Source of the DNA: a virus
Length of the DNA stretch: 20,178 nt
Strand: one strand, 5' to 3'
IMG/VR virus record: IMGVR_UViG_3300025872_000400
Coordinates: 1-20,178 of that record
The first letter of the stretch is position 1. Each line of letters begins with the position of its first letter. Position numbers and translations under genes: made by a program. The notes beneath the pieces are model-generated. The model was given only the letters and a program-made list of their open reading frames with translations. It ran no database searches and was not told the origin of the DNA. Shown here one piece after another: positions 103 through 19,268 of this stretch.

Positions 103-114
103 CCTTGGCTCCCA

Positions 115-174
115 GTTCGTAGTTCCGCCTTGAGGCGGCTGCATCCCTCACCGCCTAAAGGCGGAACTACGAAC
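115..174. repeat. Palindromic element family B, copy B1
   Basis: Arms GTTCGTAGTTCCGCCTT and AAGGCGGAACTACGAAC flank a short loop. It fills the spacer between the tape measure stop (174-176, at the edge of the element) and the next ATG at 102. The same arms recur at 3362, 4968 and 13909. Confidence 0.9.
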
Positions 175-1580
175 TACCGCACGCCCACCGCTGCAACTTC
201 AGCGTTCTCGATGTTGCGATTCAGCCGAGCCGCTTCATCTGCCGCACGCTTGGCCTCGTCGTACTGCTTTTTGGAGATCTGATACTGTCGATCCGCCTGC
301 TGATTGCCGGCCGCTGCAAACAACGTCTTGAAGAACTCACCCGATCCAGCCGTGATCGCACCCGCGCCACGCTGACCGATTCGTCGCTCGCGATCTCGAA
401 AGCGGCTCTGATCCTCCCACTCTTTTTTCTGCTGAGCCGCAACAGCCGCGTCGTTTCCGCTGACGTAGTTCGGGTCGTTCGGATCAGCAGAACTGCCGTC
501 GAAAAAGAACGTGCCGCCGTTTCCCTTCTTGAGCTTCGGACCTTTCTCGAACTCCCGCTTTGTTGCAGCCAGAGCCTTTGAAAGTTCCGCAAGCTGATCC
601 GCCGACTCTTTCAGGTTCTCGTTCCAAGTCGTCACCGACACTTGATTGAACTGGCCGCCCGCAAACGCTGTGCGCGACTGCTGAGCCTGAAACTCTTTTT
701 GCGTCTTGTCCCAACCCTTCATTTCCAGTGCCGTGTCGCCGCTTTCGACATCGCCGAGAACGCTCGTGCGGAAGCCGTGGACCTGATCAATCAGCGTCTG
801 TAGCCAGCCTTTGACGTTCAGCTTCTCAAGAAACAGCGTTGCGATGCCGCCGAGCGTCAGGCCGATCTCATCTTTGAACGTGCTCCACAGTCCGGTGAGC
901 GTCGTCGATTGTGTCGCTGCCATATCGTGGAAGCGTCCGCCAGCAGACGTGGCATCGACGAACGCTTGCCGCACTTCATCGAACGAAATTTTCCCGTCCT
1001 CCATGCGTTTCTTTAGCTCGGCCATTGTCTCGCCCGTGCGACGGCTGATCTCTTGCAGCGGGTTGAAGCCGGCGTTGATCAACTGCAACAAGTCCTGACC
1101 CATCAGCCGGCCGGTCGAAGCGATCTGACCGTAAGCCAGGCTGATGCGACCGAGCTTCTCTTCGCTCCCCATCGCGACATCACCGAGCATCATCAGATCG
1201 GGAATCACGCTTTTCGCGTTCACGCCGAAGTTGAGCAGCATCTGCGCCGCGTCGCGGACTCCGCCTTGTGAGTACGGCGTTTTCGAGGCGTACTGCGTGA
1301 GACCGCCGAGCATCGACTTCGCCGCATCCGCGCTGCCGAGCAACGTCGTGAACGACGCTTGAGCCATCTCGCTTTGAGCGGCCACTTCCACGCCCCACTT
1401 CGCCGCCGCCATCACCGACAGGCCGGCCGTCGCCGCCGCCGCGAATCCGAGCAGCTTGCCGCCGACCGCCGAAGCGACCGAACCCAACCCACCAACCTCT
1501 TGACGGACCTGCTGCGCCCCGCTCGAAAACTGAGCGTGATTCATTCGCAGCCCGATCACGATGTCGCCAAGAGTCGCCAT
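174..1580 (-). CDS. Tail tape measure protein
   Basis: A 468-aa protein expected to set tail length and to assist DNA ejection through the membrane. The N-terminal ~230 residues have the usual tape measure pattern: MATLGDIVIGLRMNHAQFSSG, an Ala/Gly-rich hydrophobic segment at about residues 32-58, then a conserved-looking domain with TPYSQGGVRDAAQMLLNFG and GQDLLQLINAGFNPLQEISRR. The C-terminal part is charged and helical, ending in a likely coiled coil. It directly follows the G/G-T chaperone genes, the canonical position. The start ATG at 1580 has CAGGAAACCT upstream. 468 aa is short for this family; at roughly 1.5 angstrom per residue it would imply a tail of about 70 nm (inference). The stop codon lies on the edge of palindromic element B1, so the original C-terminus may have been altered. 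Confidence 0.88.
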   Translation of the reverse strand: MATLGDIVIGLRMNHAQFSSGAQQVRQEVGGLGSVASAVGGKLLGFAAAATAGLSVMAAAKWGVEVAAQSEMAQASFTTLLGSADAAKSMLGGLTQYASKTPYSQGGVRDAAQMLLNFGVNAKSVIPDLMMLGDVAMGSEEKLGRISLAYGQIASTGRLMGQDLLQLINAGFNPLQEISRRTGETMAELKKRMEDGKISFDEVRQAFVDATSAGGRFHDMAATQSTTLTGLWSTFKDEIGLTLGGIATLFLEKLNVKGWLQTLIDQVHGFRTSVLGDVESGDTALEMKGWDKTQKEFQAQQSRTAFAGGQFNQVSVTTWNENLKESADQLAELSKALAATKREFEKGPKLKKGNGGTFFFDGSSADPNDPNYVSGNDAAVAAQQKKEWEDQSRFRDRERRIGQRGAGAITAGSGEFFKTLFAAAGNQQADRQYQISKKQYDEAKRAADEAARLNRNIENAEVAAVGVR

Positions 1581-1594
1581 AGGTTTCCTGAAAC

Positions 1595-1625
1595 GACTTC
1601 CGAAGTCTCAAAGACTTCGGAAGTC
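1595..1625. repeat. Palindromic element family A, copy A1
   Basis: GACTTCCGAAGTC, spacer TCAAA, then GACTTCGGAAGTC. Each 13-nt half is itself a palindrome with one central base and the whole is an inverted repeat. It occupies the spacer between the tape measure start and the stop of the T frame. The adjoining 1622-1640 sequence (agtctgctcgtcaaatcac) is repeated exactly at 2404-2422. Confidence 0.93.
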
Positions 1626-1636
1626 TGCTCGTCAAA

Positions 1637-1966
1637 TCACACCCCAAACGCCATTCGGAAGAAATCAAACGTCTCTTCCGCCGTCATCACGTCTTGTTCT
1701 CGAATCACCTCGTCGCCGCCGTCGAATCCCCACGCTCGCAGAACTTCATCCACGTCGCACGGTTCGCCGCCGAACGCCGTGATCGCACTCAGCACCGTGG
1801 CCATTTGCTCGGCCGGCTTGATCGTGCCGAACGGCCGCAATCTCGCGAACGCTTGCCACTCGGCGAACTGTTCCGGAGTCAGCTCGTCGAGCATCCGATC
1901 CACATCGAGCCGCCCGACCGACTGCGCTAGCTCGAAGGCGAACAGACGGCTCGGACGGCCTCGGAG
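1637..1966 (-). CDS. Tail assembly chaperone, T-like extension expressed by -1 frameshift
   Basis: An open frame with no stop between the slippery site at 1966-1972 and TGA at 1637-1639 encodes about 109 residues, including MLDELTPEQFAEWQAFARLRPFG. The helix followed by a WQAFxRLxPFG-type segment is typical of the T domain of lambda-like G-T tail assembly chaperones. It is offset by -1 from the G gene, so a ribosome that slips on A AAA AAC would make a G-T fusion of about 230 aa (121 residues from G plus 109). An internal GTG at 1903 could in principle start an 88-aa product, but the family precedent, the uninterrupted frame back to the slip site and the lack of a clear ribosome binding site favour frameshifting. 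Role: recruits tail tube subunits onto the tape measure during assembly. Confidence 0.82.
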   Translation of the reverse strand, partial: LRGRPSRLFAFELAQSVGRLDVDRMLDELTPEQFAEWQAFARLRPFGTIKPAEQMATVLSAITAFGGEPCDVDEVLRAWGFDGGDEVIREQDVMTAEETFDFFRMAFGV

Positions 1967-2328
1967 TTTTTTAAGAGTCGCTCCAAATCGCCTCGGTCAA
2001 ACCCGACGTGCGAATTGACCTGCCGATGAATGATCTCGATCACCTTGGAATCGAGCCCACGCACGCGATCGAGATCCGCATCCGTGAACAACGGCGAGCC
2101 TTTTTCATCGCAGACGCAAGCGATCACGAGCCGCGCCTTGGCCGTCTTCAGCCGCTCATCATCGACCTTGTCGAGTTCGTCGGTCAGAACCGACGCCTCG
2201 AAGTCGTCTTTTTCGCGAGCGGTCATCGACCGCATGAACGCTCGAATCTTCCATTGATCGAGACCGGCAATTGGCTCAATTCGCCGAGTCGCCGCTGCCG
2301 TGAAAAAGTCCGTCGCACTCGATCCCAT
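1927..2328 (-). CDS. Tail assembly chaperone, G-like
   Basis: A 133-aa protein starting with ATG at 2328 (MGSSATDFFTAAATRRIEP), preceded by a GGGCAAAAGC stretch. It lies between the tail tube region and the tape measure gene, where the lambda gpG equivalent is always found. Most of the protein is helical and charged (ATDFF..., EKDDFEASVLTDELDK..., DLERLLKNS). Only the last 12 residues follow the slippery sequence, so the 0-frame product stops soon after the frameshift signal. An in-frame upstream extension to 2505 would read through palindromic element A2 and is rejected as the start. As in lambda, both the short G form and a minor G-T fusion are expected. Confidence 0.82.
   Translation of the reverse strand: MGSSATDFFTAAATRRIEPIAGLDQWKIRAFMRSMTAREKDDFEASVLTDELDKVDDERLKTAKARLVIACVCDEKGSPLFTDADLDRVRGLDSKVIEIIHRQVNSHVGFDRGDLERLLKNSEAVRAVCSPSS
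1966..1972 (-). promoter_or_regulatory. Programmed -1 ribosomal frameshift slippery heptamer (A AAA AAC)
   Basis: Read on the minus strand in the G frame the codons are CTC TTA AAA AAC TCC, so the heptamer A AAA AAC is positioned exactly as X XXY YYZ in frame 0. After a -1 slip the frame continues AAA AAA CTC CGA ... into the T-like ORF without a stop. The 0 frame ends at TAG 1927-1929. I could not identify a convincing downstream pseudoknot by eye, though the following 40 nt are G+C rich. Confidence 0.85.
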
Positions 2329-2358
2329 GCTTTTGCCCTTGTCAGTGGTCAGTTGCCA

Positions 2359-2389
2359 GACTTCCGAAGTCTCAAACACTTCGGAAGTC
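2359..2389. repeat. Palindromic element family A, copy A2
   Basis: Same 13+5+13 structure, with one mismatch (CACTTC instead of GACTTC in the second half). It lies in the 91-nt spacer between the G start and the stop of the upstream gene. It is followed by a second partial motif (gaagtctgctcgtcaaatcac, ending 2422) identical to the flank of A1. Confidence 0.9.
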
Positions 2390-2419
2390 TGGTCGTCTGG
2401 TCGAAGTCTGCTCGTCAAA

Positions 2420-2827
2420 TCACGCTCCCGGCCCGACCGCTTCCATCTTCGCGCGTTTCTTCGCTCGGTCGGCCTTGAACTCTTTGACCTGCTCATCGGT
2501 CGCATCCAACGCCGCGATGCCAGTCGCTTGAGCGACTTCCAATCGCTCGGCCCGCACCTTCAGACGGTCGAGCTTCGCGAGCTTGTTGGCACACACACGG
2601 TCGATGCACTCTTGATCGACCGGCTCAGCGATCCCCATTTCCACCAGCCGCCAGGCTTCCGGGTGATCGATAACGGTCCCGATCGTGCCAACCACGCGAC
2701 TCCGCCGGCGAAACTCTTCGCCGTTGATCTTGCCCGACAGTTGCAGATGGATCAGATTTTTGAAGTCGTCGATCGACTTGATGTCCGGATGCGTGATCTC
2801 ACGCTCAACAATCAATTTCGCTTTCAT
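2420..2827 (-). CDS. Conserved-position tail-region protein of unknown function (135 aa)
   Basis: ATG at 2827 with AAGGAAG upstream; the product begins MKAKLIVEREITHPDIKSID. The N-terminal two thirds look globular (FKNLIHLQLSGKINGEEFRRRSR, HPEAWRLVEMGIAEP) and the C-terminal third is a charged helix rich in Lys, Arg, Glu and Asp (LDRLKVRAERLEVAQ... KEFKADRAKKRAKME), possibly a coiled coil. It lies between the tail tube gene and the G/G-T chaperone pair, a slot that in other siphoviruses often holds a small accessory tail or chaperone gene. No family is recognised. The stop TGA lies at the boundary of a sequence duplicated at the end of the T frame, next to element A2. Confidence 0.7.
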   Translation of the reverse strand: MKAKLIVEREITHPDIKSIDDFKNLIHLQLSGKINGEEFRRRSRVVGTIGTVIDHPEAWRLVEMGIAEPVDQECIDRVCANKLAKLDRLKVRAERLEVAQATGIAALDATDEQVKEFKADRAKKRAKMEAVGPGA

Positions 2828-2844
2828 TTCGGCTTCCTTGCCTC

Positions 2845-2930
2845 GTAGGGTGGGTCCACCATCGGGCGACCCACCATTCTGGTTACGTTTGTCCTTCGTG
2901 GTGGGTCGCCCGTTGGTTGACCCACACTAC
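2845..2930. repeat. Palindromic element family C, copy C1 (diverged)
   Basis: Starts GTAGGGTGGGTCCACCATC and ends GGTTGACCCACACTAC, with complementary ACCCACCA and TGGTGGGT parts inside. It is the most diverged full-length copy. It fills the spacer between the tail tube stop at 2933 and the next gene. Confidence 0.8.
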
Positions 2931-2932
2931 GG

Positions 2933-3349
2933 CTACACCGTCAGCACCGGCGAGCCGTCGATCGATGCCTTGAACTTGCCCTTCAGCCCGTCGTTCATTT
3001 TCACGATCGGCTTGAACTCCGCTCCGGCCGTCACGAAGTCGATCTCGGACGCTCCCGTGTTCACGAAGACGACCTGACAAGTCCCTTTCGCCGGAGTCGT
3101 CACCAACGCCAGCAACGCGGCGTGATTGGCCAAGTCCGGATCCCAGAAGACTTCCGCGTCGAGATCGTCGCCGGCCACGTAGCCGGTCAAATCCCGTTCC
3201 TCGCCGACGCCCGATTGATCAAGCGTCATGGCCTCGAAGTCCGAAGACTTCCAGCCTGGCGGACTCAGATCGACGCACTGCGCGATCGTGGTCATCACCG
3301 AGGAAATGCTGAGCTGAAACAGAGTCCCTTTGGATTTTGCACGTGCCAT
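2933..3349 (-). CDS. Major tail tube protein (putative)
   Basis: A 138-aa protein, MARAKSKGTLFQLSISSVMTT..., with a strong ribosome binding site (AAGGAGGAATC) before ATG 3349. The sequence alternates short beta strands and turns, with a conserved-looking core (DFEAMTLDQSG, ERDLTGYVAGDDLDAEVFWDPDLANHAALLAL, CQVVFVNTGASEIDFVTAGAEFK) and the closing DGLKGKFKASIDGSPVLT expected of small siphoviral tube proteins. It sits after the head-tail joining genes and before the chaperones and tape measure, as expected. It should polymerise as stacked hexameric rings around the tape measure. Family assignment rests on pattern and position rather than a diagnostic motif. Confidence 0.78.
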   Translation of the reverse strand: MARAKSKGTLFQLSISSVMTTIAQCVDLSPPGWKSSDFEAMTLDQSGVGEERDLTGYVAGDDLDAEVFWDPDLANHAALLALVTTPAKGTCQVVFVNTGASEIDFVTAGAEFKPIVKMNDGLKGKFKASIDGSPVLTV

Positions 3350-3361
3350 GATTCCTCCTTG

Positions 3362-3433
3362 GTTCGTAGTTCCGCCTTCAGGCGGTCCTGTCGTCGTTTC
3401 CTCAATGCACCGCCTGAAGGCGGGACTACAAAC
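3362..3433. repeat. Palindromic element family B, copy B2
   Basis: Starts GTTCGTAGTTCCGCCTTCAG and ends CGGGACTACAAAC, loop of about 30 nt including CTCAATGCACCGCC, which is shared with B3. The stop TAG of the upstream gene (3426-3428) lies inside the element. Confidence 0.92.
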
Positions 3434-3893
3434 TCGTCACATCCTCACGCCAGCCAACGCGCGCCCGGATCACGCGCGGCCGATCCGTGTTCCCGTGCCC
3501 GATGTCCTCTTCCGGGTCGTCGAACTCAGCCAAAACATCGACTTGCTCAATTGTCACCGTCGCCGCGCCGCCGGTCTCCGGATTCGTCACGCTGACCGTG
3601 CCGCCGTTGCGAATGCCGTGCAGCACTTGCCGAGCGACCTTCGCCAACACCTGAGCCTCTTCCTTCAGCAGCGCGTGAGCGACAAACTCAAAATGAGGAA
3701 ATTGCAAATCGCATTCGGTGCCGTCGAGTTCCTGATTTCGCCGCGCGTCCGCCTGAAACGGCCGCTCGATCGTCAGCGCCGGCAGATCGTCCACATCGAC
3801 GAAGTGCCGCTCGCCAACGAGCACGCGCGTCCCGACAATCGCCGTGATCGCGGTCTTCGACAGGAACTTCGTTTGCAACGCCTGCTCAATCAT
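3426..3893 (-). CDS. Tail completion / terminator protein (DUF3168, gp17-like)
   Basis: A 155-aa protein starting at ATG 3893 (MIEQALQTKFLSKTAITAIVG) with GGGGTGAC upstream. The pattern matches the DUF3168/gp17 family: an N-terminal helix, AIVGTRVLVGER, a strand with LPALTIERP, a central region about a test value (LDGTECDLQFPHFEFVAHA) followed by a helix (EEAQVLAKVARQVLHGI), then C-terminal beta strands ending RPRVIRARVGWRED. This protein caps the tail at the head-proximal end. Genes of this type lie between gp10-like and tail tube genes, as here. The last two residues and the TAG stop derive from or abut element B2. Confidence 0.75.
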   Translation of the reverse strand: MIEQALQTKFLSKTAITAIVGTRVLVGERHFVDVDDLPALTIERPFQADARRNQELDGTECDLQFPHFEFVAHALLKEEAQVLAKVARQVLHGIRNGGTVSVTNPETGGAATVTIEQVDVLAEFDDPEEDIGHGNTDRPRVIRARVGWREDVTSL

Positions 3894-3936
3894 GTCACCC
3901 CGATCGAAGACTTCCGTTCCGAAGACTCGTTCCAAA

Positions 3937-3967
3937 GACTTCCGAAGTCTTCAAGACTTCGGAAGTC
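3937..3967. repeat. Palindromic element family A, copy A3
   Basis: GACTTCCGAAGTC, spacer TTCAA, GACTTCGGAAGTC; perfect. Nearby fragments (gaagacttccgttccgaagac at 3906 and cggaagtctgtc at about 3974) look like degenerate partial copies of the same motif. Confidence 0.93.
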
Positions 3968-3998
3968 TGTCAGCGGAAGTCTGTCCGTCTCATGTTTC

Positions 3999-4628
3999 CT
4001 ATTTCGCCAACTGCTGGACTTCGCGTTCCATTTCGTTTCGAGTCAACGTGTCGATCTGCCGGGTTGAATTCGACAGGCTGCGGAATGACGGTTCGAGCGG
4101 AACCAACCGGCCGGCGCGTTGGACTTTCTTGCCAGTCGCTTTGCGAGTGTTTCCCGATTTGCGGCTGCCGGTTGAACGCTCATCCGTGCCCAATCCAAAC
4201 CAGTGCGCGTTATTTGACGAGATGCCGACACCTTCCTTGGATTTCCGCTGCGAATTGGCTTTTCTTCCCACCGAGAATCCTGCCTTCGCAGTCATCTCGG
4301 TTTTGCTTTGCTTTTTGACCTTGCTTCCAACGGTCAGAGCCATCGCCTGCGCAACCGAGCGATGTCCCATCCGTTTGGAACGTGCGCTTTGCGGATAAGT
4401 CGAGTTCCTCCGCGTCATATTCCGTTCTTCGGTCTCCACCAATTTCATCTGCGCTTTCAGTGCCTTGGTGACGACTCGCGAAACGCCGGCCTTCGACAGT
4501 TCTTCCAGCCGATCCATGATCGGATCGATGTTGTGAGCGATCTGATACTTGGCCTTGAACTTCAAGGCCGGAATCCTCCGAGCCTTGAACTTCACCGCCG
4601 ACCACTCCGCCCGTGACACCGCAGACAT
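3999..4628 (-). CDS. HK97 gp10-like tail component / minor structural protein
   Basis: A 209-aa basic protein, start ATG 4628 (MSAVSRAEWSAVKFKARRIP), overlapping the previous stop as TGATG (one base shared), so translation is coupled. After an N-terminal helix (DPIMDRLEELSKAGVSRVVTKALKAQMKLVE) it is very Lys/Arg/Ser rich and contains NNAHWFGLGTDER, which resembles the aromatic-x-GT-x-R signature of gp10-type proteins. The C-terminus is a charged helix (TRQIDTLTRNEMEREVQQLAK). Position between the gp16-like adaptor and the DUF3168-like protein supports the assignment. The longer in-frame ORF to 4847 only reads backwards over the adaptor gene and is rejected. Confidence 0.68.
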   Translation of the reverse strand: MSAVSRAEWSAVKFKARRIPALKFKAKYQIAHNIDPIMDRLEELSKAGVSRVVTKALKAQMKLVETEERNMTRRNSTYPQSARSKRMGHRSVAQAMALTVGSKVKKQSKTEMTAKAGFSVGRKANSQRKSKEGVGISSNNAHWFGLGTDERSTGSRKSGNTRKATGKKVQRAGRLVPLEPSFRSLSNSTRQIDTLTRNEMEREVQQLAK

Positions 4629-4966
4629 CAGTACCTCGTCAACATCTCGATCTCGCGGCGGTCCTCTTCGTGAGGAAACGCCGCGAGAATCGACAGTTTC
4701 AAACTTCCCCAAGAAATTCGCATCTCGCTGGTGATAGCTTCCGTTTCGCTGCTCCGAATCACCTGAATTCTGTGAGAGACATCCGCATCGACCACGCCGG
4801 CCCGAGTAAACTCCTTTGTTCCGCGGGGAATAATCCGAGCGAAACATTGAAAGTGCGTTTCCCAGTTGTCGTCATCCTCCAGATCGACCTCTTGCAACGT
4901 GTTGAGCGTTGGCGAGGCGACGATTTTTTGAATCGTGATTCGTTCGGAGTAGTTGGAAAGTTTCAT
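4628..4966 (-). CDS. Head-tail adaptor (SPP1 gp16 / phage head-tail joining family)
   Basis: A 112-aa protein from ATG 4966 (MKLSNYSERITIQKIV). It shows the family pattern of a first strand with RITIQ, then WETHFQCFARIIPRGTKEFTRAG, the strand pair VSHRIQVIRSS, and EMRISWGSLKLSILAAF. It should bind below the connector to prepare the neck for tail attachment. It comes directly after the gp6-like connector. The start codon is only one base from palindromic element B3, and the only purine-rich stretch upstream (GAAGGCGGAAC) lies inside the element, so B3 may now supply the ribosome binding site. The ORF extension to 5467 is out of frame over the connector gene and rejected. Confidence 0.82.
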   Translation of the reverse strand: MKLSNYSERITIQKIVASPTLNTLQEVDLEDDDNWETHFQCFARIIPRGTKEFTRAGVVDADVSHRIQVIRSSETEAITSEMRISWGSLKLSILAAFPHEEDRREIEMLTRY

Positions 4967-4967
4967 C

Positions 4968-5039
4968 GTTCGTAGTTCCGCCTTCAGGCGGTCCTGTTGT
5001 CGTGCGCTCAATGCACCGCCTGAAGGCGGAACTACGAAC
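4968..5039. repeat. Palindromic element family B, copy B3
   Basis: Starts GTTCGTAGTTCCGCCTTCAG and ends GAAGGCGGAACTACGAAC; loop shares GGTCCTGT.GTCGT and CTCAATGCACCGCC with B2. It contains the TAG stop of the connector gene (5032-5034) and ends one base before the adaptor ATG. Confidence 0.93.
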
Positions 5040-5637
5040 AAACCTCCGCGATTCGGTCGTCTCGCAGCTTCCACGGAGCGAGCAGCGACTTGAGCGTTCG
5101 GCTGCGGATCGTGTCGGTTCCGCCGAGCGCCACGTCGTTCTCGATCCCTTCGTACATCCAACCGGCCAGCAGCATGACCGCCGTCCGCAGGTCGTTCGGA
5201 ACGCTGGCCGAAGTCGCTCCGAAGCCGCACACAAACTGCACTTGGACGCTGTCCACAAAGTCGCGGCAGGCCGGCCACAGTGTTCCGTAGCTCGGCACAA
5301 TCAGGCCCGGTTCGTTTTTCGTGCTGACGACGTAATCGGCCGAGTCCAGCGTGATCGTGTCGCCGTCGCTGTCGAGATACGTCACCGAGGAAACCGACGC
5401 GAGCGACCCACGCGGCAGCACGATCGGAGCGTCGCCAGACGGGAACCGGTTGAGCGTGATCTTCCAAGTCTGAGTGATCAGCGCTCGCCAGCAGATTTCC
5501 TCAACGTGCCGAGTCGCCGCGTTGAGTAGTTGCGTCAGATAGGTGTCAAAGTCGCTCGAATCAATGCGGCAATGCGCCTTCAGCTCGGTCAGCGAGACCG
5601 GCAAAGCCGCAGGAGCAGTGATCAGCGTCAGAGACAT
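5032..5637 (-). CDS. Head-tail connector protein (gp6-like)
   Basis: A 201-aa protein, MSLTLITAPAALPVSLTELKAHCRIDSSDFD..., with the diagnostic features of the HK97 gp6 / Phage_connect_1 type family: LPVSLTELKAHCRID followed by a short helix (DTYLTQLLNAATRHVEEICWRAL), the beta portion TQTWKITLNRFP...PIVLPRGSLASVSSVTYLDSDGD, and the C-terminal helix VPNDLRTAVMLLAGWMYEGIE. It forms the ring attached to the portal. It normally follows the capsid gene directly; here about 5.3 kb of other virion genes intervene. The TAG stop and the last residues (EVCS) are within element B3. The start ATG 5637 lies 3 nt after the stop of the upstream gene, with no strong Shine-Dalgarno. Confidence 0.88.
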   Translation of the reverse strand: MSLTLITAPAALPVSLTELKAHCRIDSSDFDTYLTQLLNAATRHVEEICWRALITQTWKITLNRFPSGDAPIVLPRGSLASVSSVTYLDSDGDTITLDSADYVVSTKNEPGLIVPSYGTLWPACRDFVDSVQVQFVCGFGATSASVPNDLRTAVMLLAGWMYEGIENDVALGGTDTIRSRTLKSLLAPWKLRDDRIAEVCS

Positions 5638-5640
5638 TGT

Positions 5641-12350: not shown

Positions 12351-12366
12351 CGGAGTCCCTTCCGAG

Positions 12367-12397: not shown

Positions 12398-12428
12398 AAC
12401 AGCCCGCGAGCCAGTTTTGAAAAGCGAC

Positions 12429-12578: not shown

Positions 12579-12625
12579 CTAGACCACCTCGCGAAAGTTT
12601 CGCAAGAGGGAAAAAGTTTCCGAAA

Positions 12626-12656: not shown

Positions 12657-13400
12657 TGTGACCGCAAGTTCCAACGCCCGCGAGCGACGCTGACGGCGTT
12701 CGCGATCACGAGTCCGCTGTGCCGCCGCCGCTTCGGTGTTCGTGATGCCGCGCTGCCAAGCGTCAAACGATTCGCGAGCACTCAGCACGTGAGCGTCATA
12801 CCATGATCGCCACTGAGCCGCCGCCGGCTGTGACTCGGCGCTCGCTGCTCGCCGCTCGCCACTTGTGCCGTCCCGCGTCCCCGCCGTTGTCGATTCGTAA
12901 GCCGGAAAAACCACCGGCCCGACTTCCCACAGTTCCACCTCAGTGATTTCTCGATACCACAGATGCTGATCGCCCACGACAAGCTCGCGCCACGTCGCCG
13001 CCAACGGGATGAACATGAACGACGAGCCGCTCACGTCCCCGCGCCGCACTGACTCCAACACATGCCGAGCCGGCTCACTGTCCGGCGGTTCGACCTCATA
13101 CTTCAGACCGACATTGTCGATCGACAGCAGCAGCGTGCCCGCCGTCGAGCGGCCGAGAATCAAATTCGGATCGTGATTGAAAAACGATCGGCAATCGTCC
13201 TCACGAATCGCTCGATCGAACGCACCGGGCATGATCCGCTCGTAGGTGTCCGACCAGAGTTGATACTCGGTCCCCGGATCGCCTTCGCGAAAGAAAACGG
13301 CACCGTATCCGACGATCGCCGGATGCTTCTCGCCGTCGTTCGCACGAATCAACGAACACGATCGCCGGCTCGTGCCGGGCAAAAGTCGAGTCGATGGCAT
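12639..13400 (-). CDS. Prohead protease, HK97 family (peptidase U35/S78-like)
   Basis: A 253-aa protein, start ATG 13400 with AAAGGGAACAAC upstream. Herpesvirus/HK97-type serine protease features are clear: VGYGAVFF near residue 30, ERIMPGAFDRAI, the catalytic-His segment RSFFNHDPNLILGRS (His about 76), LLLSIDNVGLKYEVEPPD, the catalytic-Ser segment RGDVSGSSFMF (121-130), and ITEVELWEVGPVVFPAYEST (152-171). It should cleave the delta domain off the capsid protein and degrade itself in the prohead. The C-terminal ~75 residues are Arg/Ala/Gln-rich and low in predicted structure. The last five residues and the stop are provided by element A6. Elements flank both ends of the gene. Confidence 0.93.
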   Translation of the reverse strand: MPSTRLLPGTSRRSCSLIRANDGEKHPAIVGYGAVFFREGDPGTEYQLWSDTYERIMPGAFDRAIREDDCRSFFNHDPNLILGRSTAGTLLLSIDNVGLKYEVEPPDSEPARHVLESVRRGDVSGSSFMFIPLAATWRELVVGDQHLWYREITEVELWEVGPVVFPAYESTTAGTRDGTSGERRAASAESQPAAAQWRSWYDAHVLSARESFDAWQRGITNTEAAAAQRTRDRERRQRRSRALELAVTDFRSL

Positions 13401-13412
13401 GTTGTTCCCTTT

Positions 13413-13488
13413 GTAGGGTGGGTCGAGTCATCGAGACCCACCATTTTTGAAACGTGCTGGTGGGTCTCGATGACTCGACCCACCCTAC
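13413..13488. repeat. Palindromic element family C, copy C5
   Basis: Arms GTAGGGTGGGTCGAGTCATC and GATGACTCGACCCACCCTAC are perfectly complementary, and the inner GAGACCCACCA and TGGTGGGTCTC also pair. It fills the 91-nt spacer between portal stop and protease start. Confidence 0.95.
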
Positions 13489-13491
13489 GGG

Positions 13492-15252
13492 TTACACCAA
13501 TTCCGCCGCACGATCCGGCAGACCGTCGAGCAGCTTCTCAAACGATTCGCGAGTCCTCGTCGCGTTCTCGCCGACGTGCTCTTGCAGTTCCGACAATACC
13601 GAGCACTCGAACCAACTCGGCAGCGTGTGCTCGACGCGAGCCTTCGCATCCATCGGCAACCGTCGGCAAAGTGCTCCGGCCGGCGTCAACGCCTGACTAA
13701 TCACGTCCCCATGATCCTCGTCGAACCGCGAGAAAAACTTCTCGACCTTCGCCGCATCAACGCAGCGATCCCACACCGAGCGAACGCGCTTCACCATTCG
13801 ACCGACCGCTTCGCGAACCACGGCGACGTGAGCCTCTCGCAGCGATGTCTCGCGATCGTCCTCATCGTCATCCTCACCGAGCGGCAGATCGTCCGCGACG
13901 AGCCGTTGGTTCGTAGTCCCGCCTTCAGGCAGAACCTCATCCCGCCTGAAGGCGGAACTACGAACCCGCTCGCCACCCTTCTGCCCACCTTCGGCCGACT
14001 TTGCCAAGTTGCCGATATTCAGCGGATCTTTGAATTCGCTTTCCGGAACGGTCGGATCAAGATTCTCTAAGCTGCGAACTTCTTTCCGCACCATCCACGG
14101 CAGACCGCCGAGCGCCGTGCGGTAGTACGCCGCTCGCTGTGCGAGGTTCGATCGAACCATCGCTTGCCGCACGAACTCGAACTTGACGTTTTCCGATTCG
14201 TAATCGGCCTTCGTAAGCAGCTTGTAGGAACACTCCTGTTCCCAAGCGACGAGCCACGGCTCCAACGCATCGTCGAGATATTCCTGATTCGATTGTTCGA
14301 GCGAGGCGTAGGCCGAGTTCCCTTTCGCTCCGACCTTGTGCGGCGGGAGCCCAAGATAGTTCGCAATCGTGATCAGGTCGAACTCTTTCGATTCGAGCAG
14401 TTGCGACTCGGCCGGGTTGATCGTCAGCGCGTTGGCCTTCGCTCCCTCTTCGAGGATCACCGCCTTGTGAGCGCTCTTCAATCCGGCCTTCATCTTCTGC
14501 CAAGTCGCTTGCAGCCGAGCGTACGCTTTATCGCTGAGCGCCTCCGGAGCCTCGATCGTGAACTTCGGAGTCGCCGCGTTCTCGAAGAACACGTTCCCGA
14601 ATTGCTGACGAGCGATCGCACCGCCGAAACCTTCGACCGCGACTTTCAACAGCGAGTAACCGGTGAGTCCATCGAAGCCGAATCCGTGAATGTGCAGCAC
14701 GTTCTCCGGCGCGAGCCTACGCAGTTCCGAAGCCGGATCGTCGAGCGTTCCGCCGAGCGACGTGACGTAATACAGCCGGCCGTTCACTCGGACGGGACAG
14801 GTGCGATCAGGCAGCAGCGGCACAATATCGATCGGCTCGCCCGCCTGGTTTCGGTAGATGTACGCGAATCCGCCGCCTTGAAGGATCGCGTGCCCGGTCA
14901 GCGTTTGCTTCAGGTGAAAGGCCGAAGTCTCTCGACAGGCTCGCAGCCGCACGAACTTCCCACCGGGAATCGTCAAATCGCGCGTCTGCTTGCCGCTCTC
15001 TTCCCACCGAAACGGATAGAACGGCAGCTTGGCCAACGCGCCCGACAGCAGCGAAACGCCACGGTACACGCCCGACAGACGCAACGCCGTTTGCCGGTTG
15101 ACCCGAATCCCGCTGACCGACTTCGTTTCGCCGAACGCCTCGTCCCACGCTTCGGGATCGGACAGCGAGACGCTCGGATTCTCCCACGAGAGCCGCTGCT
15201 CGGTCACACCGCGAGCGTCAACGTCGAACGAACTACACGCCAGAGCTTCCAT
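13492..15252 (-). CDS. Portal protein, HK97 family
   Basis: A 586-aa protein, start ATG 15252 with GAAGGGAAGAGC upstream. The core (about 45-420) has the expected portal blocks: VNRQTALRLSGVYRGVSLLSG, ALAKLPFYPFRW, HLKQTLTGHAILQGGGFAYIYR, VLHIHGFGFDGLTGYSLL, GNVFFENAATPKFTIE, GLPPHKVGAKGNSAYASLEQ and DDALEPWLVAWEQECSYKLL. It forms the dodecameric DNA entry ring at one capsid vertex. The C-terminal ~165 residues are long for the family and include an acidic patch (LGEDDDEDDRE) and charged helices. Residues 430-448 (VRSSAFRRDEVLPEGGTTN) are encoded by palindromic element B4, inserted without breaking the frame and lying beyond the conserved core. Confidence 0.93.
   Translation of the reverse strand: MEALACSSFDVDARGVTEQRLSWENPSVSLSDPEAWDEAFGETKSVSGIRVNRQTALRLSGVYRGVSLLSGALAKLPFYPFRWEESGKQTRDLTIPGGKFVRLRACRETSAFHLKQTLTGHAILQGGGFAYIYRNQAGEPIDIVPLLPDRTCPVRVNGRLYYVTSLGGTLDDPASELRRLAPENVLHIHGFGFDGLTGYSLLKVAVEGFGGAIARQQFGNVFFENAATPKFTIEAPEALSDKAYARLQATWQKMKAGLKSAHKAVILEEGAKANALTINPAESQLLESKEFDLITIANYLGLPPHKVGAKGNSAYASLEQSNQEYLDDALEPWLVAWEQECSYKLLTKADYESENVKFEFVRQAMVRSNLAQRAAYYRTALGGLPWMVRKEVRSLENLDPTVPESEFKDPLNIGNLAKSAEGGQKGGERVRSSAFRRDEVLPEGGTTNQRLVADDLPLGEDDDEDDRETSLREAHVAVVREAVGRMVKRVRSVWDRCVDAAKVEKFFSRFDEDHGDVISQALTPAGALCRRLPMDAKARVEHTLPSWFECSVLSELQEHVGENATRTRESFEKLLDGLPDRAAELV
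13909..13965. repeat. Palindromic element family B, copy B4 (inside the portal gene)
   Basis: Starts GTTCGTAGTCCCGCCTTCAG and ends GAAGGCGGAACTACGAAC. It is 57 nt long, exactly 19 codons, so it is frame-neutral within the portal coding sequence. Its loop is shorter than in B2 and B3. Confidence 0.93.
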
Positions 15253-15264
15253 GCTCTTCCCTTC

Positions 15265-15295
15265 GTAGGGTTGGTCGAGTCATCGAGACCCACCA
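15265..15295. repeat. Family C half element, C6
   Basis: GTAGGGTTGGTCGAG, then TCATCGAGACCCACCA; one substitution relative to C4. Like C4 it is a left arm only, and it lies in the spacer upstream of the portal start. Confidence 0.88.
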
Positions 15296-15301
15296 GATTC
15301 A

Positions 15302-15520
15302 TTATGAAACGGTGAATTTCCCGCGCGGTCCCATCGTTGCCAGTAATGCCTCTTGCAAATCGAAATACACATCCGCGAGCAGATCTTCGTTGATCTTGAT
15401 CTTCGACTGACATTGTCGCGCGACGAACACGACGGGAGCATTCGCTTCCGATGTCGCCTTTCTGATACCGACGATCGAGGCCACACCACCGAACGTAAAT
15501 TGCCTTCGGCTGACTTTCAT
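15302..15520 (-). CDS. Small protein with Tat-like N-terminus (72 aa) between terminase and portal
   Basis: Start ATG 15520 (MKVSRRQFTFGGVASIVGIR), with GGAGAAGATGGAAA upstream. The N-terminus matches the twin-arginine pattern S-R-R-x-F, followed by a short hydrophobic stretch (FTFGGVASIVGI) and a possible cleavage region SEANA. The remaining ~42 residues (PVVFVARQCQSKIKINED and LLADVYFDLQEALLATMGPRG) look like a compact strand-helix unit. It lies between element A7 and half element C6. Tat-type leader peptides are not expected in a phage packaging operon, so this may be a moron gene, a lysis or superinfection factor, or a chance match because the hydrophobic core is short. No family is recognised. 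Confidence 0.55.
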   Translation of the reverse strand: MKVSRRQFTFGGVASIVGIRKATSEANAPVVFVARQCQSKIKINEDLLADVYFDLQEALLATMGPRGKFTVS

Positions 15521-15551
15521 TTTCCATCTTCTCCACACACGCTGACGACCA

Positions 15552-15582
15552 GACTTCCGAAGTCTCTGAGACTTCGGAAGTC
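15552..15582. repeat. Palindromic element family A, copy A7
   Basis: GACTTCCGAAGTC, spacer TCTGA, GACTTCGGAAGTC. The identity with A9 extends outwards to the flanking tgacgacca and tttca on either side (about 45 nt shared). It abuts the terminase stop (15585-15587). Confidence 0.94.
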
Positions 15583-15584
15583 TT

Positions 15585-17519
15585 TCAATCATCGCCCAAC
15601 ACGCGCACGTCTCGTTTGTCATAAACGCTGCCATTCTTCTCGTGAAACAGCAGCTCGCTGTACGCCATCAACACCGACACCATTTCGTCGATCTTCGCCA
15701 GCGGGTTTGACTTGTCCGGCATCCACAGATCGCGGCTGTCGCGGACGATCGTCAGGTTTCCGGCCTGCCACGCCAGACACGGCTCGTTGCCGTGTCGAAT
15801 CCAGCCCTCTTTCAAGTTCTGCTCGAACGATCTAAGCGGCTCGTTGTAAAACTTCGCAATCTGAGTGAACTCGAAGACCTCTTGCCCGTGATCGTTCGAC
15901 AGGTTTTGAGCGACCACGCGAGCGAACATCGGATCGTATGCCCACGACCGAATCGAATACCGCTTCGAGAACGCCGCAATGCGCCGTTCGATGTCCGGAT
16001 AGTCGATCCCGTCTCCCTCGTAACAGATCAGCGAACCGGACTTGATCCAAGCCGCGATCTGCGGAGTCATTAGCGCGTCGTCGCGGCCTTCGCAGGTGAA
16101 GGCTTGCCCGATCAAGTGAATCTCTTCACCGATCGGAAACACCGCCGCAAACGCCGCGAAGTCGTTCGACCGAGCCAGATCAAACCCGCCGAACCCGACC
16201 GCTCCACGCGGCACCGCCGTTGCGCCCGCTCCACGCAGCCACAGCTCCGGCGTGATAAACTTTGCCTTGCTGCTCACTCGGACATTCATGTGATACCGCA
16301 GCAGCGTGTTGAGCGCCTTCGGCCGTTGCCTCGCCTCGTTCGCCCGCGCTTTCAAGTATCGCGGAGCGACCGAGATTCCGAGATTTGGATTCGCTTTCGG
16401 CCAGCAAGCCTCATCAAACGGATCGTCCGCCGCGATCGTTCCGCTGCCGTCGCAGTGATCGTTGAAAAGTGCTGCCCATCCAGCACGACGCGCCAGCGAG
16501 TGGTTCCCCTTTTCTCCAGCGGCAAGACCACTCGCTCGCGCGTCGTGCTTGTGACCGCATTTCACGCAGCCCAAACATGGCCGCTCGTGATTGTCGATCG
16601 CCGCCAGGAAGCCGAAGACCGTGTCGTCAACAACCTCGTCGGTCAAAGCCGATTCGCAGACGCGAGCGAAATAGTCGTGCTCGTTGATCCACAGTTCGGA
16701 GCCGTCGTGTCCGGCCGTCGTGATAAACATGATCAGCGGCTGAAACCGAGCACCGCCGGCCGTGGTGATCTTCTCGAACAGTCCCTCGTGCCGCTTCGCC
16801 CATTCGTGCAGTTCGTCCGCGACGACGGCCGACGTGTTCAAGCCGTCGGTCGATTTGCTGTCGCTGCCGAGAATCTGAATGAAGCTGTTCGTCTTCGAGT
16901 AGTGAATCGACTTGGCCAGCGGTCGCAGCCGTTTTCGCAGCGGCTTGCTCTTCGCGATCATGTTCACCGCTTCGCGGAACACGATCTTCGCCTGCGCCTC
17001 TTTCGTGGCCACGCAGTAAATCTCCGCCGCTTCCTCCGTCGGAAGATCGAAGACCAGCAGCAGCAGCATGATTGCGGCCATGAACGTGGACTTCCCGTTT
17101 TTGCGAGCGATCTCGATCAGAGACCGCTCGAAGCGTCGGCCGCCGTCTTCTTTGCGTCGCCAGCCGAACAGACACCAGATAATGAACTTCTGCCAGTCGC
17201 TCAGCGTGAAGGGATCGCCGGCCTTCGTGTGACCGCTGGGGCTGTTCTTGCTGTGCTTGCAGCAAGATTCGATGAAGACAATCGCCACTTCGGCGTGAGC
17301 CTCGGAAAAGACATAACCACGAGCTTCGGCTTCCACGAGATCGCGGACATGCCGCAGCACAGCCAGACGAACCAATCGGCCAGCGACGATCTGACCTCCG
17401 AGAACACGCCGGCAATACGTCTCGACGTCACGAGCGATCGGAGACGAACCGAACGCCGGGATCGGGTCGGCTCGCTGTCGCGCGGGCTTCTTTCGTTTGT
17501 TCGTGGTTGTTCGTGCAAT
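15585..17519 (-). CDS. Terminase large subunit (ATPase and nuclease)
   Basis: The packaging motor. Numbered from the proposed start, the Walker A-like motif ARKNGKS is at 138-144, Walker B VVADE at about 232-236, and the coupling motif TTAGHDG at about 267-273. The C-terminal RuvC-type nuclease shows GFGGFDLARSNDFAAF, RSWAYDPMFARVVAQNL and AKIDEMVSVLMAYSE. An insertion between the domains has a Cys knuckle (CLGCVKCGHKH) followed by about 23 residues encoded by palindromic element D1. The start is uncertain. The ORF is open to an ATG at 17627, but that reads straight through element C7 and overlaps the previous gene. After the element there is AGGGAAAAG then ACG ATT GCA, and no ATG, GTG or TTG in frame for a long distance. 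I place the start at ATT 17519 (644 aa); the alternative is ATG 17627 (680 aa). Confidence 0.93.
   Translation of the reverse strand: MARTTTNKRKKPARQRADPIPAFGSSPIARDVETYCRRVLGGQIVAGRLVRLAVLRHVRDLVEAEARGYVFSEAHAEVAIVFIESCCKHSKNSPSGHTKAGDPFTLSDWQKFIIWCLFGWRRKEDGGRRFERSLIEIARKNGKSTFMAAIMLLLLVFDLPTEEAAEIYCVATKEAQAKIVFREAVNMIAKSKPLRKRLRPLAKSIHYSKTNSFIQILGSDSKSTDGLNTSAVVADELHEWAKRHEGLFEKITTAGGARFQPLIMFITTAGHDGSELWINEHDYFARVCESALTDEVVDDTVFGFLAAIDNHERPCLGCVKCGHKHDARASGLAAGEKGNHSLARRAGWAALFNDHCDGSGTIAADDPFDEACWPKANPNLGISVAPRYLKARANEARQRPKALNTLLRYHMNVRVSSKAKFITPELWLRGAGATAVPRGAVGFGGFDLARSNDFAAFAAVFPIGEEIHLIGQAFTCEGRDDALMTPQIAAWIKSGSLICYEGDGIDYPDIERRIAAFSKRYSIRSWAYDPMFARVVAQNLSNDHGQEVFEFTQIAKFYNEPLRSFEQNLKEGWIRHGNEPCLAWQAGNLTIVRDSRDLWMPDKSNPLAKIDEMVSVLMAYSELLFHEKNGSVYDKRDVRVLGDD
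16482..16550. repeat. Palindromic element family D, copy D1 (inside the large terminase gene)
   Basis: Left arm AGCACGACGCGCCAGCGAG and right arm CTCGCTCGCGCGTCGTGCT, one mismatch, with TGG and CCA next to the loop. It is read in frame by the terminase as HDARASG ... NHSLARRAG. The arms match those of D2. Confidence 0.92.
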
Positions 17520-17531
17520 CGTCTTTTCCCT

Positions 17532-17607
17532 GTAGGGCGGGTCGAGCATCGAGACCCACCAGAAAAGAAAACGAAATGGTGGGTCTCGATGACTCGACCC
17601 ACCCGAC
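17532..17607. repeat. Palindromic element family C, copy C7
   Basis: Arms GTAGGGCGGGTCGAGCATCG and GATGACTCGACCCACCCGAC with inner GAGACCCACCA and TGGTGGGTCTC. It lies between the 75-aa gene and the probable terminase start. It is open in the terminase frame, which creates the ambiguous long N-terminus. Confidence 0.92.
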
Positions 17608-17613
17608 GAAGAC

Positions 17614-17841
17614 TCACGCCGCTGCATCGCCGCGCGGCATCACGAATTCGCGAGCGTCGGCCAACGCCTCATCGGCCGTTGACCGATAGGGTAAATGCAC
17701 AATTCGGATTCGCCGCGTCGTGCCACGCGGCAACGTGATCACCACACGCCACTCTCCCAAGAGCGTCACCTGCAAAGCGACGTTCTCCAGATGGGGCGCG
17801 ATCCCCAACAGCTCCTCAAGCAACTTCGGCACGTCATCCAT
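17614..17841 (-). CDS. Unknown protein between small and large terminase genes (75 aa)
   Basis: Start ATG 17841 (MDDVPKLLEELLGIAPHLEN) with TGGAGCCTGTC upstream; the GGAG is at the outer edge of element D2. The product has an N-terminal helix, then strands (VALQVTLLGEWRVVITLPRG, RRIRIVHLPYRS) and a final helix (DEALADAREFVM). Total length is 75 residues. The fold looks complete, not truncated. No family is recognised. Genes at this position in other phages sometimes encode small DNA-binding or nuclease-associated proteins, but nothing here shows that. The extended ORF to 17901 is D2 read through. Confidence 0.62.
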   Translation of the reverse strand: MDDVPKLLEELLGIAPHLENVALQVTLLGEWRVVITLPRGTTRRIRIVHLPYRSTADEALADAREFVMPRGDAAA

Positions 17842-17851
17842 GACAGGCTCC

Positions 17852-17919
17852 AGCACGACGCGCCAGCGAGTGTTTGCGGTTCTGTCCGCAGAAACGAACA
17901 CTCGCTGGCGCGTCGTGCT
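17852..17919. repeat. Palindromic element family D, copy D2
   Basis: Left arm AGCACGACGCGCCAGCGAG and right arm CTCGCTGGCGCGTCGTGCT are perfectly complementary, extended by TGTT and AACA, with an inner stem TGCGG / CCGCA. It fills the spacer between the small terminase stop and the 75-aa gene. The terminase stop TAG is formed at its edge (17918-17920). Confidence 0.94.
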
Positions 17920-18445
17920 AGTTTCGTTTCGCTCCCACCATCCGCTCGAACTGTTTCGAGATCTGCTCGATCGGATCGTCGTCCTCTTCGCCGTTGCCGC
18001 CCTGAATTCGCATTCCAGATCGGCTGCTCGGCGTCATCCCGAATTCGCGAGCCAACCGCAGCAGATCATTCCGCGACTTGTGCATGATCGCCGTCACCGG
18101 ATGCTGATAGACCGACGAGCCGATCTCTTCCCCGTCGTTGTTCGTGCGAGTCGATTCGACGAACAGCTTCTCGATGTCGCCGGCAATCCAATTCGAGCAG
18201 TTGCGAAACATTGAAAACGTGTCGCAGAACAATGCGAAGACCACGCCGTCGATCGGAGTCAAAAGGTTGTGCTTGACCAGTCGCGGAGCGAGTTCGCGCC
18301 ACAACTCTTGAGCCGCCTCGTCGAGCCACTCCGGCATGATCGGCTCGCCGGCCGCGACCTCGACGCCCGCATCGCGATCCTTGCGATACGTGCCGCGCTC
18401 TTTCTTCACCGCCGCCGGCGTCTTTGCTGGTCCGCGTCTGCCCAT
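17918..18445 (-). CDS. Terminase small subunit, P27 family
   Basis: A 175-aa protein from ATG 18445. It begins MGRRGPAKTPAAVKKERGTY, the P27-family opening (G-R-P/G-P-A-K-TP, then a basic stretch), followed by MPEWLDEAAQELWRELAPRLVKHNLLTPIDGVVFALFCDTFSMFR and the closing HPVTAIMHKSRNDLLRLAREFGMTPSSRSGMRI, which is diagnostic for this family. It recognises the packaging site and loads the large subunit. The ATG lies one base from a degenerate family C element (C8) and no Shine-Dalgarno is visible upstream (CCAAAACTACG), so translation initiation may be weakened or may depend on upstream genes. The stop is at the edge of element D2. Confidence 0.93.
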   Translation of the reverse strand: MGRRGPAKTPAAVKKERGTYRKDRDAGVEVAAGEPIMPEWLDEAAQELWRELAPRLVKHNLLTPIDGVVFALFCDTFSMFRNCSNWIAGDIEKLFVESTRTNNDGEEIGSSVYQHPVTAIMHKSRNDLLRLAREFGMTPSSRSGMRIQGGNGEEDDDPIEQISKQFERMVGAKRN

Positions 18446-18446
18446 C

Positions 18447-18600
18447 GTAGTTTTGGTCGAGTCATCGGGTAGCGTGCCGGAAGGAAAGACTTCCGAAGTC
18501 TCAAAGACTTCGGAAGTCTGGCAGTCCACGACACGACCTCAAGACCCACCGACTCGCTTTCGTTTGTGTGGTGGTTTTCGCGTTGCTCGACCCACCCGAC
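18447..18600. repeat. Degenerate family C element, C8, interrupted by family A copy A8
   Basis: The left part GTAGTTTTGGTCGAGTCATC resembles the start of family C; after A8 the sequence resumes with AGACCCACC at 18542 and ends with GCTCGACCCACCCGAC at 18585-18600. The right half codes for the HNH C-terminus, and the HNH stop lies within it. Heavily mutated, hence the lower confidence. Confidence 0.6.
18488..18518. repeat. Palindromic element family A, copy A8 (nested in C8)
   Basis: GACTTCCGAAGTC, TCAAA, GACTTCGGAAGTC; perfect. It lies between the two arms of the degenerate C8 element. Confidence 0.93.
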
Positions 18601-19006
18601 CTAACAGCCGATCCTCGGTCATCGTCTTGACCGAATGGCAGCGCCAGCACAGAGCTTGATGATTGGTCGGTTTCCAAAATCCCGGATCATCCGGCCCTGT
18701 CACTGGCACGATGTGATCCGTGCATTCGGAGGGGGTTGCGCGACCGGCCTGGCGACACCGCACGCAGAGCGGGTGTCGAGCGAGGAAGGCTCGCGAATAC
18801 TTTTGCCAGCGGTATCCGTATCCACGCGCGGCCGCGTGAGGAAACTCGGCGCTCGGAGCCGCACGCCCGACCCAGCCGAGGTTTCTTGTGGGCCGAGGGG
18901 CGAGGGGCGAGGGGCGAGGGGATGGGCCGGCAGACGATCCGCTCGCTGCTCGTCCCTCGTCCCTCGTCCCTCGTCCCTCACTCCGTTTCCCGACTCGCTT
19001 GGCCAT
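18539..19006 (-). CDS. HNH endonuclease
   Basis: A 155-aa protein from ATG 19006. The catalytic region runs from residue 60: RGYGYRWQKYSRAFLARHPL, zinc ligands CVRC (81-84), DHIVPV with D97 and H98, a W-x-PTNHQALC segment with N115, and WRCHSVKT (121-128). This is the typical small phage HNH nuclease found beside terminase genes, where it assists DNA cleavage at packaging. The N-terminal 10-40 (SEGRGTRDEGR, SPLAPRPT) is encoded by the 7-mer tandem element E and is low complexity. The C-terminus RVGRATRKPPHKRKRVGGS comes from a degenerate family C element. The enzyme core itself is intact. A Shine-Dalgarno before 19006 is weak and the start could lie elsewhere. Confidence 0.88.
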   Translation of the reverse strand: MAKRVGKRSEGRGTRDEGRAASGSSAGPSPRPSPLAPRPTRNLGWVGRAAPSAEFPHAAARGYGYRWQKYSRAFLARHPLCVRCRQAGRATPSECTDHIVPVTGPDDPGFWKPTNHQALCWRCHSVKTMTEDRLLGRVGRATRKPPHKRKRVGGS

Positions 19007-19176
19007 GAATTCGCCGATCGTTGAAAAAGCATCGACTTCACGAAATCGACCGACGTTTCCAGCGAGGCCAGCCGCACGTGCAAATTCACAATCCCGCCGA
19101 AGATCGTCAAATGCAGCAGAGTCGCCAACGCGATCCAATCACCGACCCCAAGTTGTGTCAGCTTCCGTTCCGACAT
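18700..19176 (-). CDS. Small membrane protein, possibly holin-like, with a C-terminus overlapping the HNH gene
   Basis: Start ATG 19176 (MSERKLTQLGVGDWIALATL). Residues 11-34 (VGDWIALATLLHLTIFGGIVNLHV) form one membrane helix, followed by a short amphipathic segment (RLASLETSVDFVKSMLFQRS). This one-helix plan with a short coiled segment is common for small phage membrane proteins. From about residue 57 the frame overlaps the HNH gene for 307 nt, running through element E in an alternative frame until TGA at 18700. That part is Pro/Arg/Gly-rich, so the original protein probably ended soon after residue 55 and lost its stop. Function unknown; lysis, or exclusion of a second phage, is possible. 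Confidence 0.55.
   Translation of the reverse strand: MSERKLTQLGVGDWIALATLLHLTIFGGIVNLHVRLASLETSVDFVKSMLFQRSANSWPSESGNGVRDEGRGTRDEQRADRLPAHPLAPRPSPLGPQETSAGSGVRLRAPSFLTRPRVDTDTAGKSIREPSSLDTRSACGVARPVAQPPPNARITSCQ
18894..18980. repeat. 7-mer tandem inverted structure, element E
   Basis: Left part is about four copies of GAGGGGC (18894-18920) and the right part about four copies of CCTCGTC (18949-18980), pairing as an imperfect hairpin around a 28-nt loop. It lies inside the HNH coding sequence. Three 7-mers equal 21 nt, so expansion in threes keeps the frame. Confidence 0.85.
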
Positions 19177-19229
19177 CGTGACTCCGAATCTGACGACCAG
19201 ACTTCGACGACCAGACTTCGTGACGACCA

Positions 19230-19260
19230 GACTTCCGAAGTCTCTGAGACTTCGGAAGTC
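19230..19260. repeat. Palindromic element family A, copy A9, with tandem partial copies
   Basis: GACTTCCGAAGTC, TCTGA, GACTTCGGAAGTC; perfect. On its left are two partial units (GACGACCAGACTTC at 19192-19205 and 19207-19220, approximately), so the flank has been duplicated in tandem. It fills the 92-nt spacer between Gam and the membrane protein. Confidence 0.93.
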
Positions 19261-19268
19261 TTTCACTT

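Follow-up and report, generated by a model that had tools for sequence, protein, structure and literature searches.

Palindromic repeat elements of five families occupy the gene junctions of a late operon in a probable planctomycete phage

The IMG/VR virus record IMGVR_UViG_3300025872_000400 (20,178 nt, analyzed at its full length and referred to here as the window) carries a phage late operon that holds 24 palindromic repeat elements of five families, designated A to E. Two of the families, B and C, are head-to-head doublets of GTAG-tagged repetitive extragenic palindromes (REPs) and are thus like REPINs (REP doublets forming hairpins); A, D, and E fit this description less cleanly, as inverted-doublet or tandem-palindrome relatives. 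Every intergenic spacer of 56 nt or more contains at least one element, and the density exceeds that of every chromosome sampled. We consider it probable that REP/REPIN-type elements of a planctomycete host, mobilized by Y1 transposases, inserted repeatedly in the structural operon and were tolerated at gene junctions and in protein loops.

Results

Five Families of Elements in One Late Operon

The families were scanned for by pattern matching with dinucleotide-shuffle controls. Family A (AGACTTCCGAAGTCT-N3-AGACTTCGGAAGTCT, up to 3 mismatches) is present in 9 copies against 0 expected. Family B (GTAGGGTGGGTCGAG, up to 3 mismatches) gave 16 matches against 0.45 expected, ~14 of which make up 8 elements, while C (8 half-sites forming 4 elements) and D (4 half-sites forming 2 elements) each had an expectation of 0. 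Family E is a single GAGGGGC-type tandem inverted array at ~18893-18985. The count given in the first-pass annotation of this DNA, 24 copies of five families in 20 kb, was borne out by these scans (9 A, 8 B, 4 C, 2 D, 1 E), as was its claim that several unrelated families have colonized one late operon. Indeed, inverted repeats with arms 11 bp or longer and a loop of at most 60 number 22 in the window against 5.3 in Markov resamples; by the same criteria the best syntenic relative, L126, has 2 against 5.7 expected. The elements are as follows.

112-174: GTAG-REP doublet of family C, tape-measure gene 3' end, spacer 103-173 downstream of that gene
1594-1626: A element (15-bp arms, 3-nt loop), spacer 1581-1636
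2358-2390: A element, spacer 2329-2419
2845-2930: B doublet, eroded, spacer 2828-2932
3362-3433: C doublet, its GTAG forming the stop codon of gene 3426-3893
3936-3968: A element, spacer 3894-3998
4968-5039: C doublet, gives the connector gene its stop; 1 nt separates it from the ATG of gene 4628-4966
9474-9506: A element, spacer 9436-9526
9949-10026: B head-to-head doublet, spacer 9938-10071
10179-10211: A element within open reading frame (ORF) 10072-10398, in-frame (TSEVLKTSEV)
10839-10919: B doublet, separates the capsid gene and gene 10452-10823
12367-12397: single B unit, immediately upstream of the capsid start
12625-12657: A element, last codons and stop of the protease gene, the stop lying in the A loop
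13413-13488: B doublet with perfect 31-bp arms, portal/protease junction
13909-13965: 57-nt C doublet within the portion of the portal gene for the poorly conserved C-terminal tail
15265-15295: single B unit, immediately upstream of the portal start
15551-15583: A element directly behind the TerL stop, 45 nt identical to the copy at 19229
16479-16552: D doublet inside TerL, in an insert of ~53 residues between the ATPase and nuclease domains
17532-17607: B doublet, upstream of TerL
17849-17922: D doublet, stop codon of TerS
18447-18600: B element interrupted by an A element; the right half of B forms the C terminus and stop of the HNH gene
18487-18519: A element nested in that B element
18893-18985: E, tandem inverted array of GAGGGGC type, in the N-terminal portion of the HNH gene
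19229-19261: A element, with iterated GACGACCAGACTTC partial copies alongside

The B unit has an unpaired GTAG at one end of a short stem-loop (GTAG-GGTGGGTC...GACCCACC), and so does the C unit (GTAG-TT-CCGCCT-TC-AGGCGG). Five intact B doublets (76-86 nt) and four C doublets (57-72 nt) are paired head to head, and similar pairs are seen in host-type genomes. GTAG-tagged REPs (Di Nocera et al. 2013, PMC3733652) share with these elements the tag, the short stem-loop, and head-to-head dimers 20-100 bp apart, as well as a location at junctions downstream of genes, some copies in ORFs, and a presence in Planctomycetes. C agrees with the features given for GTAG-1/2 in its six-pair stem (CCGCCT/AGGCGG), its TC loop, and the unpaired TT that follows GTAG (PMC3733652). 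That survey never mentions phages, whereas here several families saturate one phage late operon. The elements also resemble REPINs and bacterial interspersed mosaic elements (BIMEs) associated with REP-associated tyrosine transposases (RAYTs; Bertels and Rainey 2011, PMC3116915), in that inverted REP doublets are the likely unit of mobility and Y1 transposases are present within the same host genomes. In contrast to that system, no RAYT adjoins the elements in the loci seen, mobility is presumed, and the location is phage DNA.

The A half-unit is AGACTT-CCG-AAGTCT, and as a doublet it forms one 15-bp stem with a 3-nt loop. A CGTC-like tag (GACGACC/GGTCGTC or GCTCGTC) adjoins the palindrome in five of the nine window copies, which recalls the CGTC/TGTC/CCTC tag at one end of CGTC-tagged REPs (PMC3733652), but it is absent from the chromosomal A copies inspected. 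However, CGTC-tagged REPs have a stem of 8-9 bp and a loop of 4-5 nt, and because A, with a 6-bp stem and a 3-nt loop, does not have these lengths, we have not filed it among them. Two further E-like stretches were noticed, one (GGGARGEGRGASVPAEP) in a 437-aa ORF in the right flank of the phage (L142:1594-2907), and one in L002 (IMGVR 3300047160_036239), an unrelated 17-kb viral record with two A elements, one of which is flanked by E-like GGGGCGT tandem inverted arms. Arrays of clustered regularly interspaced short palindromic repeats (CRISPR) or phage attachment (att) sites were rejected as identities for the elements, which are dispersed and belong to five families.

Element Sites, Stop Codons, and Intragenic Copies

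An element in each spacer longer than 53 nt had been claimed, and all 18 spacers listed do hold at least one; the claim needs correction only in that one of them, 15253-15301, is just 49 nt. The REP-free junctions are spacers of 23, 3, 11, 48, and 53 nt or gene overlaps. When the element is subtracted, most spacers fall to 1-72 nt, near the REP-free size, the exception being the protease-capsid spacer 12351-12638, with a residual 243 nt. This remainder has an open frame at 12410-12600 (~50 residues, ...LVAEFDEWCELKRRPDELATALTDFAAEFCDSVKRISNTFRL) that does not begin with a usual start codon; element insertion may have cost a small gene its start.

The usual site of an element is behind a stop codon and ahead of the ribosome-binding region of the next gene. 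Elements also make stop codons, namely those of gene 3426-3893 (TTTGTAG), the connector gene (TTCGTAG), TerS (by D), the protease gene (by the A loop), and the HNH gene (by B). The ends of GTAG REPs have the same habit of supplying TAG stops (PMC3733652). Four copies are intragenic, lying in ORF 10072-10398 (A), the portal tail (C), the TerL insert (D), and the HNH N terminus (E). The D-bearing insert is absent or nearly absent in 12 aligned TerL relatives. Besides D, the insert region (16450-16600) contains Cys/His residues (CLGCVKCGHKHD...NDHCDG), a possible metal-binding loop, in a place where relatives are without the loop. The proposal that the elements came in without disrupting the genes therefore stands in that no ORF is broken, and it must be qualified by the four intragenic copies and the REP-made stop codons.

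The elements accumulated stepwise. Because one A element sits inside a B element (18447-18600), B is the older of the two, and copies range from a perfect 31-bp palindrome to eroded forms. Recent colonization, as first suggested, thus fits only some copies; others are eroded, and one B is split by A.

Folding of the transcribed strand gave -25 to -72 kcal/mol (z -3.6 to -14) in six REP-containing spacers, and two REP-free spacers fold unremarkably. Such stable intercistronic hairpins, one at almost all long junctions, might have been kept because they process, protect, or insulate the cistrons of the late mRNA, and stabilization of mRNA has been hypothesized for REPs in other bacteria (PMC3733652). 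Retention for function nevertheless appears improbable to us: the elements occur in both orientations and in five unrelated sequences, they were not found in the syntenic relatives, which do without them, some are intragenic, one is split by another, one C element stops 1 nt short of a start codon, and there is no terminator excess. Thus, despite the very stable RNA hairpins, the mixed families and orientations and the copies inside genes argue against a regulatory role. Intrinsic terminators (a GC-rich hairpin and then a T run) were rejected as an identity, with 20 terminator-like sites in the window against 21.3 in shuffles; few of these lie on elements, and those that do are on the nontranscribed strand. 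As a secondary possibility, the inserted hairpins may now insulate each late cistron.

The Phage and Its Relatives

The structural module is of HK97 type, with TerS, TerL, portal, protease, capsid, connector, and tape measure in order and with HNH and Mu Gam-like genes upstream of it. Every gene of the operon lies on the minus strand. The gene table is our own (ORFs plus homology), with a few start codons inferred.

174-19877, minus strand: late operon (by Pfam and PHROGs: tape measure, tail proteins, head closure, connector, capsid, protease, portal, TerL, TerS, HNH, Mu Gam-like)
10938-12350, minus strand: capsid gene
12639-13400, minus strand: S78 protease gene
13492-15252, minus strand: portal gene
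15585-17519, minus strand: TerL gene
17918-18445, minus strand: TerS gene

IMGVR_UViG_3300006641_000114 (29,915 bp) includes positions 23-20178 of the window at 100% identity, plus flanks, and a third IMG/VR record matches the window at 99.98%, so that all three records represent one phage (99.98-100%). Positions 1-22 are unlike both other records and are probably an assembly-graph end, not real sequence. An apparent lack of A copies in L005 was dismissed, as these were merely mismatch-filtered or outside the contig. Downstream of the phage tail genes (L141:152-6772) lie genes for two heptosyltransferase-like proteins, a glycosyltransferase 34/methyltransferase fusion, and two Ser-rich low-complexity proteins.

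Families A to D were not found in the IMG/VR TerL relatives of the phage, nor were other dispersed palindrome families. Prophages in three genomes (G428, G492, and G495) were free of A, C, and D and yielded B-like matches (up to 3 mismatches) only as stray singles, never as doublets. The spacers of the closest available relatives are therefore without the copies seen here, and the absence of A to D from the relatives indicates that the elements were gained in this phage lineage, after divergence. Near the G428 prophage, on a complete planctomycete chromosome, we noted same-direction repeats of 40-300 nt (CCGAACCCG-CGCTGCACCGGACC) upstream of TerS (L215:8000-18000), spaced ~400-900 nt with small ORFs between. 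These were rejected as REPs, being a separate array of long repeats; it looks like an integron-type or repeat-companion gene array adjoining the prophage.

The exact host genome was not found in the collections searched, and the phage is probably a virus of an uncultured planctomycete bacterium. The GTDB family of Planctomycetales SW_37 (hereafter the SW_37 family) has prophages with the same gene order and with the best prophage TerL relatives (five at ~41-42%), and protease identity with the G428 prophage is 57%. In a TerL search of 392 planctomycete genomes one weak relative was found. Tetranucleotide correlations are 0.77-0.89 with five SW_37-family genomes and G495, 0.60 with the G492 prophage contig, and 0.39-0.76 with Anaerolineae, the samples differing in length; tetranucleotide usage is closer to most SW_37-family sequences than to Anaerolineae and fits the former better.

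A TerL relative (E <= 1e-15) is present in only 11 of 95 SW_37-family genomes, which argues that the operon is not a vertically fixed cluster. This bears on the idea that the window is a domesticated tailocin-like or gene transfer agent-like cluster, fixed in a chromosome and collecting REPs as old chromosomal DNA does. REPs have been used as markers of the older, stable chromosome (PMC3390384), integrase, lysis, and replication genes were not seen in the 30-kb record, and the three records are near-identical, all in keeping with domestication. However, the genes from TerS through tape measure are all intact, the flanks carry tail-type, glycosyltransferase, nuclease, and Mu Gam-like genes, and no clear host gene flank was found. 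Domestication is thus unlikely in our judgment.

Occurrence on Chromosomes and in Virus Collections

Whether the families are chromosomal or confined to the prophage was a check proposed at the outset. B and C, and A at low copy, proved to be planctomycete chromosomal families, so that a phage-specific origin was rejected for them. For B and C, both refuting conditions set in the first-pass annotation (confinement to this prophage, and the same copies at identical positions in the closest relatives) thus came out in favor of its interpretation, which is supported in part and, with the qualifications given above, mostly correct in direction. The exact C unit is present in 7 of 392 planctomycete genomes, with up to 134 copies (G091). 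Of the 95 SW_37-family genomes, 24 carry exact B, with a maximum of 165 half-sites; C, with 1 mismatch allowed, is found in 6, and its count across the family runs from 0 to 371 half-sites (371 in G431). All three of A, B, and C are present in one genome, Planctomycetales SW_37. Copies of family A are spread over several phyla, Chloroflexota and Planctomycetota among them.

In a set of 2.9 million IMG/VR contigs, the B hairpin and D are limited to this phage, C is in four others (once each), and A is in one other; B and C doublets gave no match in the phage collection. As a control, the Escherichia coli Y-type REP unit was found in 7 of 50,697 phage records, in single copy each, and at least three of these are bacterial contigs of at least 500 kb. 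This agrees with mobile DNA being poor in REPs: in Pseudomonas, mobile elements map to regions devoid of REPs ("REP desert"), and REPs mark the older chromosome (Loper et al., PMC3390384).

Density was compared with the numbers expected per 20 kb at the density of the richest genomes sampled. Exact B half-sites number 7 against 0.41 expected (~17-fold, P 3e-7), C half-sites 7 against 0.79 (~9-fold), and A 9 against 0.06 (150-fold). The chief rival explanation is a host chromosome equally saturated, with about one element per gene junction, which the phage would merely mirror, phage DNA being in no way special. The exact host is missing from the collections, certain Anaerolineae contigs pack 2-3 A elements into 4 kb, and, as the range of C shows, copy numbers vary hugely among related genomes of one family. 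Nonetheless, none of the 95 SW_37-family genomes comes near the window density, which lies by the above factors over the densest, and Pseudomonas genomes mostly have 500-1500 REPs each (PMC3390384). A saturated host is possible, though we do not favor it. Because the elements could have the same origin under this rival and under the explanation we prefer, the two probabilities overlap.

Discussion

In the explanation that we prefer, the elements belong to the REP/REPIN type of miniature mobile repeat and come from a planctomycete host, most likely one in or near the SW_37 family, which we infer to be this phage's own. The doublets would have been mobilized in trans by host Y1 (RAYT, IS200/IS605-like) transposases in several rounds, either while the prophage resided in the chromosome or onto single-stranded replicating phage DNA. 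The ancestral operon would have been almost without free DNA, and purifying selection would have left survivors only at stop codons, in gaps between a stop and a ribosome-binding site, and in dispensable protein loops or tails. Nearly all spacers of 56 nt or more would then consist of an element and a short remnant because other insertions were not tolerated. The B split by A and the eroded copies point to stepwise colonization. Within this scheme, we infer RAYT mobilization, prophage residence, and the exact host. Y1_Tnp (Y1/RAYT-type) genes were present in all six planctomycete genomes tested.

Several observations weigh against this scheme. The loci examined show no RAYT gene next to the elements, the proteins checked from the 30-kb phage record gave none either, and no REPs flank six RAYT loci except for one B-like site in L195. 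Family D was found on no chromosome examined. Family A is rare in planctomycetes (at most 19 copies, up to 2 mismatches) and frequent among Anaerolineae matches. The phage flanks (9.7 kb) have two A elements only. Finally, densities above every sampled chromosome mean that simple passive residence is insufficient unless the true host is exceptionally REP-rich.

The palindromic elements of Rickettsia are inserted in-frame in protein genes without killing them, and D in TerL and C in the portal may be compared with these; the present elements, however, belong to a phage and lie mostly between genes. Literature searches yielded no report of a REP-saturated phage. The elements are of known type, with a setting and density that are, as far as we found, undescribed.

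Single-stranded replication or packaging intermediates are a natural substrate for Y1 transposases. It is conceivable, if doubtful, that phage DNA is a preferred REPIN target, in which case this phage would be a hotspot that surpasses its own host in REP density and might carry REP families between bacterial lineages. In any case, 24 copies of five families in a phage late operon break the rule by which REPs mark old chromosome and mobile DNA is a REP desert. On this compact functional template, the order of REP insertion, the preference for sites, and the limits set by fitness can be read directly, and the operon suggests a possible route by which identical REP families may reach distant phyla.

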